From positions 62,001 to 126,000 of the forward strand of contig NZ_ATVM01000005.1 of NCBI RefSeq assembly GCF_000420725.1: a DNA stretch of 64,000 nt, written 5' to 3'. The position numbers were made by a program, and so were the translations under genes. Origin of the DNA: Marinococcus halotolerans DSM 16375. Lineage in GTDB: Bacteria; Bacillota; Bacilli; Bacillales; Marinococcaceae. How positions within the stretch are numbered: the stretch's first letter is position 1; each line of letters starts with the position of its first letter. The notes beneath the pieces were generated by a model. It saw only the letters and a program-made list of their open reading frames with translations, was not told where the DNA came from and ran no database searches. This document shows positions 56,991-59,949 of the stretch, piece after piece.

Positions 56991-57069
56991 GCATGTCAGG
57001 CCGAAAACACCTTCCGGACACCGTTAACCGGAATGAGAAGCATGTAAGGTCTGAAAGGAGGAACCGTTG

Positions 57070-57867
57070 GTGGGAGAGGCAATAGTAATTACATCCGGAA
57101 AAGGCGGGGTCGGGAAAACCACGACTTCCGCTAACATCGGTACAGCACTTGCACTGCAGGGACAAAAAGTATGTTTGATTGATACAGATATCGGACTTCG
57201 GAATTTGGATGTCGTTATGGGTCTGGAAAACCGGATTATTTACGATCTGGTAGACGCTGCGGAAGGTCGCTGCAAGGTGCAGCAGGCATTAATCCGGGAC
57301 AAGAGGTTCGACTGCCTGCATCTGCTGCCGGCAGCACAGACGAAGGACAAATCTGCGGTGAATCCGGAACAAATGCAGGAAATCGTGGAGACGCTCCGCC
57401 CGGAATACGATTTTATTCTTATCGATTGCCCGGCCGGTATTGAACAGGGATTCAAAAACGCTGTGTCCGGCGCGGATAAAGCGATCGTTGTCACCACTCC
57501 GGATACGGCCGCTGTGAGAGACGCCGACCGGATTATTGGTTTGCTTGAAAACGAAGACATTGAACCGCCTAAGCTCGTAGTGAACCGGGTGCGGAGTGAT
57601 CTTTCCCGGGAAGGCAACGTATTGGATGTGGAAGATGTCGTAGCTACCCTTGCAGTGGATCTGCTCGGGATGATTGTAGACGAAGAGCATGTGTTAAAAG
57701 CAGCGCATAAAGGGGAGCCGATTGCGATGGACCCAAACAGCAGGGCTTCGCTCGGATACCGTAATATTGCGCGCCGCCTGCTCGGGGAATCGGTGCCGCT
57801 GATGGCAGTAGAAGAAAAGAAAAGCTTTTTCTCCAAGGTGAAAAGTTTATTTGGAATAAAATCATAG
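57070..57867 (+). CDS. minD: Septum site-determining protein MinD
   Basis: The 265-residue ParA-family ATPase positions MinC at the membrane. The deviant Walker A is SGKGGVGKTTTSANIG, followed by DTDIGLRNLDVVMGLENR and the Walker B DCPAGIEQ. The C-terminal amphipathic helix ends KVKSLFGIKS and binds membrane. The GTG at 57070 follows AAAGGAGG by 8 bases and gives MGEAIVITSGKGG, as in B. subtilis; a TTG one codon earlier is also possible. No divIVA, minJ or spoIVF genes are adjacent. Confidence 0.97.
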   Translation: MGEAIVITSGKGGVGKTTTSANIGTALALQGQKVCLIDTDIGLRNLDVVMGLENRIIYDLVDAAEGRCKVQQALIRDKRFDCLHLLPAAQTKDKSAVNPEQMQEIVETLRPEYDFILIDCPAGIEQGFKNAVSGADKAIVVTTPDTAAVRDADRIIGLLENEDIEPPKLVVNRVRSDLSREGNVLDVEDVVATLAVDLLGMIVDEEHVLKAAHKGEPIAMDPNSRASLGYRNIARRLLGESVPLMAVEEKKSFFSKVKSLFGIKS

Positions 57868-57951: not shown

Positions 57952-58071
57952 AACAGTGAAAGGGCATGCTGTTTTGGATCTGATTCCCGAATCGCCTGTC
58001 TTTCTTACAAAGGTTTTTACAGAATGAAAGGCTTCGAGTATCTATCCGAATGCGCGAAGGAGGAATCACTG

Positions 58072-58245
58072 ATGACCGTTATAGAAAAGCACCCTTATCT
58101 TTCCGATGAAGAACGCCAAAAACTGGCTCTTTTAAATAAACAAATGCAGGAAGCAGCTTCTGAACAGGAATTGAAGCGGCTTACCACACAGATCGCCCTG
58201 CTTCATGAAAAGGCGAAGGTCAGAGAAGAAAATAAGTCTAACTGA
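58072..58245 (+). CDS. Small acidic/basic helical protein of unknown function (57 aa)
   Basis: I do not recognise this gene. The ATG has a strong AAGGAGG site 8 bases upstream. The 57-residue product is predicted mostly helical and highly charged: LSDEERQKLALLNKQ, then ASEQELKRLTTQIALLHEKAKV, a heptad-like pattern suggesting a short coiled coil. There is no signal peptide, membrane helix or cysteine. An in-frame ATG at 58024 would add 16 residues but has a weak ribosome site. It has its own promoter and terminator and occupies the place of spoIVFA/FB in B. subtilis. Confidence 0.7.
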   Translation: MTVIEKHPYLSDEERQKLALLNKQMQEAASEQELKRLTTQIALLHEKAKVREENKSN

Positions 58246-58247
58246 AT

Positions 58248-58281
58248 GACTGCCATCATCATGTGGCAGTCTTTTCCTTTT
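58248..58281 (+). terminator. Terminator between the small gene and rng
   Basis: GACTGCCA pairs perfectly with TGGCAGTC around 8 bases and is followed by TTTTCCTTTT. Confidence 0.8.
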
Positions 58282-58312
58282 GTAAAGAAATGTGCCACTG
58301 GAGGAACGTTCG

Positions 58313-59827
58313 ATGGAATTAATTGCAAATATGAAAGCCGGGGAAGCAAGAGCAGCCCTGAAACATAATGGAAGAGTCGCAGAGTTCTTTTTCGAGTCGG
58401 CAATGGACGACACAGCGGCCGGAGATATCTATAAGGGAAGAGTGGTGGATGTGCTGCCGGGAATGGACGCTGCGTTTATTGATATCGGGAAAGGAAAGAA
58501 AGGGTATCTGCACCGGGACAATATTATGGCGTACCGTCTGCTGAAAGAGCCGCTTGCTGAAAAAAAACAGCGGGGCATTAAAGATTTTATTAAAAAGGGC
58601 GAATATTTATTTGTGCAGGTCGTGAAGGAAGAAACGGCCAGCAAGGGTGCCAAACTTAAAGAAAATTTGTCACTGCCGGGAAAGTACTGTGTGTATCTGC
58701 CGGACGAGCCGGGATTGTTTATTTCGCAAAAGGTGGAAGACGCCGTAAAGGAAGAATGGCTCGAGCAGGAAGAAGCGCTGCCGCTGAACGGGGACGGGCT
58801 GATTGTGCGTACAGAGGGAACGGCACAGTCACTGGATGTGGTAAAAAAGGAAGCGTCCCAGCTCCAGAGCCTGTGGCAGGATATGGTTCTTCGGGGAGAA
58901 GAGCTGGCTTCACCGGGAAAGGTATCGCAGGAGGAGCACTTTTTAACAAAATGTCTGTCATATGCACCCATGGAACGCGTGAAAAGAGTCGCTGTGGATA
59001 CAAGAGAGGCAATGGAGACAGCACAAGCGCAATTCAACGGGCAGGAGCCGGAAAAGCGTCCGGAATTTGTTCTTTTTGAGCGCCCGGAAAATATTTTCAC
59101 AGAAGAGAACGTAGAGATCGACCTCGAGCGGGCCTTAAAGCCTGTAGCATGGCTGAAAAGCGGTGGGTTTTTACAGATTGAAAAAACAGAGATGTGTATC
59201 ACCATTGATGTGAATACGGGAAGGTTTACCGGAAAGCATGACCTGCAGCACACGATCGTAAAAACAAATCTCGAAGCTGCCGCAGAGGCAATGCATCAAT
59301 TGCGTGTGAGAAACCTCTCCGGTATGGTAATGATTGACTTTATACGGATGAATGAAGAAAAAGACCGGCAGCATTTAATTCAGGTACTGGAAGAAAAAGC
59401 CGCTGAAGATCCGCAGAAAATCCGGGTTGCCGGCTTTTCCCGTCTCGGCGTCGTAGAGTTGACCCGCCAGCGCTCCCGCCAGAGCCTCGAGGAACATATG
59501 CTTGAACCTTTTGGTACCGAGTACGGCAAAGGATGGCGGCTGTCGGAAAAAGAAATCATGGAAAGGGCAAAACGAATGCTCGGTGCCTGGGTGGAGGAAG
59601 ATGTAGACGCGATTGTGCTGGAGGTGCCGGACCGGCTGCTCGCCCGGGAAGGCAGGGCGTTGTATGATGATCTCCAGCAAATAGTCCCGGGACGCTTATT
59701 TATCGTCTCTGAAGCAAAGGAGCAGGAGATCGTGGTCCGCTACGCGGGAAGCCTTGAAGTGGCGGAACAAAGAAATCAGGCTTTAAAGGCTCAAATGAAG
59801 CAGCGGGGAATTGACTTTCGTTTTTAA
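58313..59827 (+). CDS. rng: Ribonuclease G/E family protein lacking the zinc-link cysteines
   Basis: The 504-residue protein matches RNase G: an N-terminal S1 domain (GDIYKGRVVDVLPGMDAAFIDIG), the 5'-sensor/RNase H-like core and a DNase I-like region. The two Mg-binding aspartates are kept: D299 in ITIDVNTG and D342 in MIDFIRMNEEKD, spaced as in E. coli RNase E D303/D346. After LTRQRSRQSLEE, where RNase E/G carry CPxCxG, this protein reads EPFGTEYGKG (about 398-407), so the zinc-link is missing. RNase G matures rRNA and decays mRNA. ATG 58313 follows TGGAGG by 8 bases. Confidence 0.9.
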   Translation: MELIANMKAGEARAALKHNGRVAEFFFESAMDDTAAGDIYKGRVVDVLPGMDAAFIDIGKGKKGYLHRDNIMAYRLLKEPLAEKKQRGIKDFIKKGEYLFVQVVKEETASKGAKLKENLSLPGKYCVYLPDEPGLFISQKVEDAVKEEWLEQEEALPLNGDGLIVRTEGTAQSLDVVKKEASQLQSLWQDMVLRGEELASPGKVSQEEHFLTKCLSYAPMERVKRVAVDTREAMETAQAQFNGQEPEKRPEFVLFERPENIFTEENVEIDLERALKPVAWLKSGGFLQIEKTEMCITIDVNTGRFTGKHDLQHTIVKTNLEAAAEAMHQLRVRNLSGMVMIDFIRMNEEKDRQHLIQVLEEKAAEDPQKIRVAGFSRLGVVELTRQRSRQSLEEHMLEPFGTEYGKGWRLSEKEIMERAKRMLGAWVEEDVDAIVLEVPDRLLAREGRALYDDLQQIVPGRLFIVSEAKEQEIVVRYAGSLEVAEQRNQALKAQMKQRGIDFRF

Positions 59828-59846: not shown

Positions 59847-59949
59847 CGTTAGTTGTTTGGAAGCACCCAAACTACAACCGCACAAGAACAGGTTTAAGCC
59901 CTGGAAAGGCACCTGTATTGGCGAGTCTAAGTGATTAGGAGGTGCAGAG
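59847..59949 (+). promoter_or_regulatory. Ribosomal protein L21 leader (autoregulatory RNA element)
   Basis: The roughly 100-base leader before rplU has the layout of the Firmicute L21 leader. Typical text includes the ACCGCACAAGAACAGG and GGCACCTGTATTGGCGAG segments, where ACAGGTT...ACCTGT pairing forms the central helix. The element is thought to bind L21 and repress rplU-prp-rpmA. Assignment rests on position and recalled similarity, not on a covariance search. Confidence 0.6.

Follow-up and report, generated by a model that had tools for sequence, protein, structure and literature searches.

An RNase E/G Family Ribonuclease of Marinococcus without the Zinc-Link Cysteines and Its Counterparts across Bacillota

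Genomic context of the ribonuclease gene

The window analyzed here, a 64,000-nucleotide stretch of the genome of Marinococcus halotolerans DSM 16375, carries a gene for a ribonuclease of the RNase E/G family, with minD and a small open reading frame (ORF) upstream and the L21 leader, followed by rplU, downstream. The ribonuclease ORF starts with an ATG at 58313, behind a GGAGG at 58300-58304, and its coding part spans 58313-59824; residue numbers such as D299, N301, and D342 count from this ATG. The features of interest are as follows.

57067-57867: MinD, encoded close upstream of the ribonuclease gene in the genus
58024-58245: small ORF of at most 73 amino acids (MKGFEYLSEC...), lying after minD and ahead of the ribonuclease gene; occurs in 5/5 genus genomes
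58313..59827, + strand: Rne/Rng family ribonuclease gene, 504 amino acids plus stop (PF10150 and TIGR00757 matches)
58415..58645, + strand: S1 RNA-binding domain, residues 35-111 (PF00575, E 0.00034; 21.4 bits, slightly below the cut-off of 22)
58808..58813, + strand: R166-T167, aligned with R169/T170 of the Escherichia coli 5'-monophosphate pocket (pocket residues from PMC3997798)
59207..59209, + strand: catalytic D299, aligned with E. coli D303
59213..59215, + strand: N301, aligned with E. coli N305
59336..59338, + strand: catalytic D342, aligned with E. coli D346
59504..59533, + strand: EPFGTEYGKG, residues 398-407, the zinc-link segment without cysteines (from alignments and the model strands 397-402 and 405-410)
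59546..59803, + strand: retained small (oligomerization) domain, about residues 412-497 (from model secondary structure and alignment with family members)
59866-59938: L21 leader (RF00559), followed by rplU, which is identified by its sequence

The small ORF gave no Pfam match above the cut-off, and its relatives outside the genus are weak, namely, one in another member of the same family (locus L018; E 1e-4) and one in Shouchella clausii (L161; E 7e-5). L018 is also the only one among 12 other family loci, each taken with 1.5-kb flanks, to have a minD match near the E/G gene. Between the small ORF and the RNase gene lies a terminator-like hairpin with a T-rich tail (58248-58281), the stem of which ends 41 bases upstream of the ATG and 28 upstream of the GGAGG. 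The surrounding alignment of 151 columns shows 97% identity across five genomes, the fold z-score is -2.0, and a scan of the region returned four terminator-like sites against 2.5 expected by chance. Transcription of the minD unit could stop here, or the hairpin could attenuate expression of the ribonuclease gene.

Family membership and predicted structure

The 504-amino-acid protein scores 344.9 bits with the Rne/Rng subfamily model TIGR00757 (cut-off, 325.95) and 245.1 bits with PF10150 (cut-off, 25.5), placing it in the family. With the RNase G equivalog model NF008689 it reaches 278.4 bits, far under the cut-off of 594; hence, it is not an RNase G equivalog. It ends at residue 504, past the small domain, and thus has no C-terminal degradosome scaffold of the kind found in E. 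coli-type RNase E. Its closest named match, 92% identical, is from an uncultured Marinococcus, and its solved relatives by sequence are RNase E structures. With E. coli RNase G and the Rne/Rng family as defined by TIGR00757 and NF008689, it shares the domain order, the length class without the C-terminal scaffold, the catalytic D/N/D residues, and the 5'-sensor R/T residues, but it differs from them in having no zinc-link cysteines.

An AlphaFold2 monomer model built from a 43-row alignment (mean pLDDT, 85.0; pTM, 0.69) has the fold of the E. coli-type RNase E catalytic domain. The nearest solved structure is 5f6c_A (Z 28.9; rmsd 4.3 over 402 residues), with 2bx2 at Z 27.9 and rmsd 10.7 over 414 residues; the predicted fold is the same through residue 408, and the small domain is kept. 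Residues 37-124 of the model align with the S1 structure of E. coli RNase E (Z 12.2), supporting the sub-threshold S1 match. Whole-chain Foldseek comparisons with full-length E. coli chains gave TM scores of about 0.5-0.67 and rmsd of about 14-19, so the relative placement of the domains in the model is a prediction. A more distant likeness is to the archaeal FAU-1/Ribonuclease W proteins (8wo8 and 8rza), in which the S1 and 5'-sensor part is alike (Z 16.2-16.3 over residues 33-206), an aligned range that stops short of the catalytic part.

By alignment, the window protein retains the equivalents of the catalytic residues D303, N305, and D346 and of the 5'-monophosphate sensor residues R169, T170, and V128. 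The first-pass annotation of this DNA had named D299 and D342 as the two conserved catalytic aspartates, and both the residues and their numbers are correct.

The zinc-link segment

Relatives carry CxxCxGxG where the window protein has EPFGTEYGKG, so that in the genus the first cysteine is replaced by F or Y and the second by E, while the GxG is kept. Relative to E. coli RNase E, the CPxCxGxG motif (as given in PMC2631609) is lost, and there is no C-terminal half. This agrees with the initial description of a CPxCxG segment turned into EPFGTEYGKG with its glycines preserved, residues 398-407 lying within the interval 59494-59541 to which it was assigned. The whole protein has only three cysteines (C126, C214, and C295), and H395 is the sole histidine close to the loop. 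The usual zinc ligands are therefore absent from the region rather than displaced within it, contrary to a possibility raised in the first-pass annotation. An alternative metal site was likewise rejected, as none of these four residues pairs near the loop.

In the model, residues 397-402 and 405-410 form strands, followed by the small domain; the linker is thus modeled as a hairpin. The block 401-410 has a pLDDT of 68, lower than the mean, and 40 of the 43 rows supplied to the predictor are from neither the genus nor Paenibacillus, so the modeled hairpin may derive from homologs with the CxxC motif.

Pairs of zinc-bearing and zinc-free paralogs are known among ribosomal proteins. A second, zinc-bearing E/G paralog was considered on this model and rejected: a family search of the genome (56 contigs, 3.14 Mb, 99.96% complete) returned the gene at 58313-59827 as the one Rne/Rng family match. 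The same genome encodes an RNase Y (796.7 bits) and two proteins of RNase J type (721 and 650 bits), all three scoring above their cut-offs. The earlier suggestion that many Firmicutes use RNases Y and J instead is therefore incomplete, in that both are present here but so is an E/G enzyme. An E/G match occurs in 342 of the 397 genomes of the order, and part of these matches entered the survey below. One study (PMC3997798) likewise describes many Bacilli besides Bacillus subtilis as combining E/G, J, and Y enzymes, with the E/G protein often short.

Fixation and constraint in the genus

The altered segment reads EP[FY]GTEYGKG in all five genus genomes examined, with W or R following the GxG. 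Its codons vary silently among the species, and the amino acids are frozen apart from the F/Y alternation and one W/R difference. Among six genus sequences, dN/dS lies at 0.089-0.122 in 12 of the 14 informative pairs, and the remaining two stand at 0.318 with a dS of 0.023; one of the six rows (L124) has a coding sequence identical to that of L004 and is probably the same organism. The E/G gene of the genus is thus under purifying selection. A sequencing or assembly error in the segment, which the first-pass annotation had allowed for, is refuted by the agreement of five genomes that differ silently; nothing was found in its favor, and its likelihood is negligible. Given the silent codon differences and a dN/dS near 0.1, the loop is a fixed, constrained state.

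Of the 29 family genomes, 10 have no E/G match, and the 14 family members outside the genus that have the gene all keep CxxC. A rival reading is that the gene was acquired from another lineage that already lacked the zinc-link. Two wider, quicker trees do each place the genus beside a single distant row, but with supports of only 40 and 23, and the neighboring rows have CxxC, as do the 19 nearest rows outside the genus listed for one of these trees. A more careful tree of 40 rows, computed without the linker and small domain, unites the genus with its own family (support 90/99, which lies under the star threshold), and in 19/19 family loci the E/G gene occupies the same position near rplU, with the L21 start motif inside its 1.5-kb flanks. 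Synteny and the careful tree together favor vertical descent of the gene, and we consider acquisition very improbable.

The genus stem in the careful tree is 2.61 changes per column, against at most 0.6 for the other inner branches drawn. Consistently, the window protein has a median identity of 38.1% to 12 family members, compared with 57.5% among those 12, whereas neighboring genes used as divergence controls show smaller gaps (window versus family against within family: L21, 75.2/80.2%; Prp, 54.2/64.3%; L27, 84.4/86.2%). These three controls took the place of MinD, which occurred in just 6 of the 17 family loci compared. We read the stem and the identity gap as loss of the zinc-link on the long stem of the genus, amid a burst of change in the E/G protein, followed by stabilization. 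Among alignment positions with a conservation of 85% or more across the 302 CxxC proteins of the survey below, nine carry substitutions specific to the genus (56, 146, 279, 294, 296, 332, 339, 380, and 386), and no replacement pattern was recognized in them; the loop cysteines are missing from this list, probably because of gaps in the large alignment.

The long stem, the identity gap exceeding that of three neighboring genes, and the presence of RNases Y and J in the same genome would also suit an RNase E/G that is decaying, or has already lost catalysis, and persists as an RNA-binding protein, with the loss of the zinc-link as a sign of decay. Set against this are the intact D299, N301, D342, and R166-T167, the dN/dS of about 0.1 with a nearly invariant loop, and a reading frame that is intact in 5/5 genus genomes, which together make decay improbable.

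Loss of the zinc-link across Bacillota

To place the window protein among its relatives, we use a set of 355 RNase E/G proteins, consisting of one row per genome plus named loci. The set is nonrandom, and overlaps of named with other genomes may add duplicate rows. Four RNase Y and J loci (L050-L053) were removed before counting, two proteins with short cores (L115 and L272) were excluded from the trees, and L019 and L020 were excluded from one alignment (A1). In every protein, CxxC was scored by alignment within 55 residues past the end of the catalytic part.

The motif is present in 302/355 proteins and absent from 53/355, all 53 in Bacillota; as weak matches were deliberately enriched, 53/355 is not a prevalence. 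The counts with and without CxxC, respectively, are 0 and 5 in the genus (including the window genome), 14 and 0 in the rest of the family, 89 and 36 in the order, 41 and 7 in the class, 81 and 2 in the phylum, 16 and 3 among named Bacillota, and 61 and 0 among other named rows, 3 of which have no phylum assignment. Alignment around the segment, the check proposed with the initial observation, thus sets the window protein apart from the 302 with the motif. It does not make the protein the oddity that it was taken for, since the same loss recurs across the phylum. CxxC is accordingly typical but not strictly defining of the Rne/Rng family in Bacillota.

No fewer than 15 family-level groups contain zinc-link-less proteins, among them Paenibacillus (L170 and L191), the order families f2, f7, f8, f14, f15, f19, f21, f33, f36, and f46, the class families f50 and f62, and the phylum families f117 and f130. 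The fewest changes of the CxxC state are 13 on a FastTree tree of 353 rows and 11 on a quick IQ-TREE tree of 124 rows; such counts alone cannot separate gain from loss, and several rows sit on long, weakly supported branches. As 61/61 sampled rows outside Bacillota have the motif, we infer the changes to be losses, most of those elsewhere in Bacillota being separate from that of the genus.

Like the window protein, the other losers keep the catalytic aspartates and the 5'-sensor arginine. The equivalents of D303, D346, and R169 are present in 302/302 proteins with CxxC and 53/53 without it (R169 being R in 355/355), and that of T170 is T or S in all 355. The survey counts and trees together indicate that loss of the zinc-link is recurrent in Bacillota and compatible with retained active-site residues. 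The N305 equivalent is N in 302/302 proteins with the motif and 45/53 without, the other 8 having D, so activity is not certain for each zinc-link-less protein, although the window protein has N. The eight (L122, L123, L359, L360, L363, L367, L368, and L371) belong to families f2, f14, f15, and f21.

The losers differ in the fate of the surrounding region. Most of the small domain is lost in 13/53, and 40/53 keep a tail of at least 90 residues. L170 and L191 from Paenibacillus terminate at the motif ahead of the linker; these two, along with L121 and L123, stop at or just past the catalytic part, lacking both zinc-link and small domain, and keep the catalytic Asp residues. The linker, taken as everything between the catalytic part and the small domain, is 33 residues long in the window protein and in 285/302 CxxC proteins. 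Among the 34 tail-keeping losers outside the genus it is shorter (25-32 residues) in 29 and 33 residues in five (L109 and four f46 proteins). Only 7/53 losers retain the GxG, namely, six rows of the genus, of which one is probably a duplicate, and L109. Thus, unlike most other losers, the genus retains the linker length, the GxG, and the small domain. L109 (genome G046, family f19) has a similar-looking loop, LERYSHETGFGWR, and lies on a very long branch apart from Marinococcus.

A stronger reading, which does not exclude simple loss, is that the loop was remodeled under selection rather than by drift into a protein-only replacement clasp built on the aromatic F/Y together with E, Y, and W. 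The retained linker length and GxG, the otherwise frozen loop, the similar loop of L109 in another family, and the strands predicted on either side are in line with it. Conversely, the model is of a monomer only, conservation within a single genus reflects a short period, and the four f46 losers hold the linker length without GxG; further, a clasp is no general requirement, given that the loop is shortened or gone in most of the other losers. We regard such remodeling as rather unlikely, if worth keeping in view.

Functional interpretation

The zinc-link has been described as an organizer of both the quaternary structure and the active site of RNase E. Core catalysis is reportedly retained without the tetramer domain, going by the title of a 2006 study by Caruthers. 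Paired CPxCxGxG motifs in E. coli RNase E hold one zinc between protomers, and mutation or deletion of the zinc-link abolishes tetramers and substantially lowers activity (PMC2631609). It has been called essential for activity, yet an artificially maintained tetramer stays active (PMC12510024), and hence the first-pass annotation went too far in taking the zinc-link as a requirement for activity. The CxxC does matter in Caulobacter, where its mutation reduces foci and alters the half-life of one mRNA (PMC12510024). RNase G is mostly a dimer without the segments that stabilize the dimer-dimer interface (PMC2948425), and in cyanobacterial RNase E the zinc-link is present but the small domain is missing (PMC10989914). 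Our literature search, covering parts of the sources and excepting the 2015 classification of RNase E homologs (10.1111/mmi.13095), found no earlier report of zinc-link loss in Firmicutes; that its recurrent loss is absent from print is weakly supported.

Taking these findings together, we propose, with a probability of about 0.75, that the gene encodes a chromosomal RNase G-like endoribonuclease of the RNase E/G family that has lost the zinc-link ligands for the shared zinc. Judged from the sequence, it is most likely an active endonuclease that forms a zinc-free dimer and acts alongside RNase Y and RNase J in an accessory role. We infer the absence of zinc, the activity, and the dimeric state alike. 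As in RNase E, the enzyme would cut single-stranded RNA by means of two metal-binding aspartates, and the conserved pocket residues suggest that it would sense 5' ends. The main dimer may be held, without metal, by the DNase I-like interface and the small domain, with the former zinc knuckle probably persisting as a plain protein hairpin that joins the large and small domains. As RNase Y and RNase J can take on bulk decay, the constraint on the oligomer may have been relaxed, the linker being altered on the genus stem and then fixed in its new form. The initial suggestion of an enzyme that dimerizes differently or has a metal-independent interface is upheld as to its basis, the lost ligands and kept active-site residues, from which one or the other presumably must follow; the state of the interface itself is a prediction. 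As a counterpoint to this proposal, the long stem could also signify an altered function.

By itself, the window enzyme is a modest, lineage-specific variant, which becomes more telling among the set of RNase E/G proteins without zinc ligands. For the family, caution is due in scoring membership by the CxxC motif in Bacillota, and the natural zinc-link-less homologs offer a test of whether zinc serves catalysis, 5'-end sensing across the dimer, or only the stability of the oligomer. More tentatively, and at less than even odds, Bacillota RNase E/G enzymes may repeatedly have become zinc independent, the zinc knuckle of Marinococcus having been rebuilt as a fixed hairpin clasp made of protein alone, on which an active dimer relies. 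If so, these proteins would be natural experiments in which quaternary assembly and catalysis of RNase E family enzymes are uncoupled.
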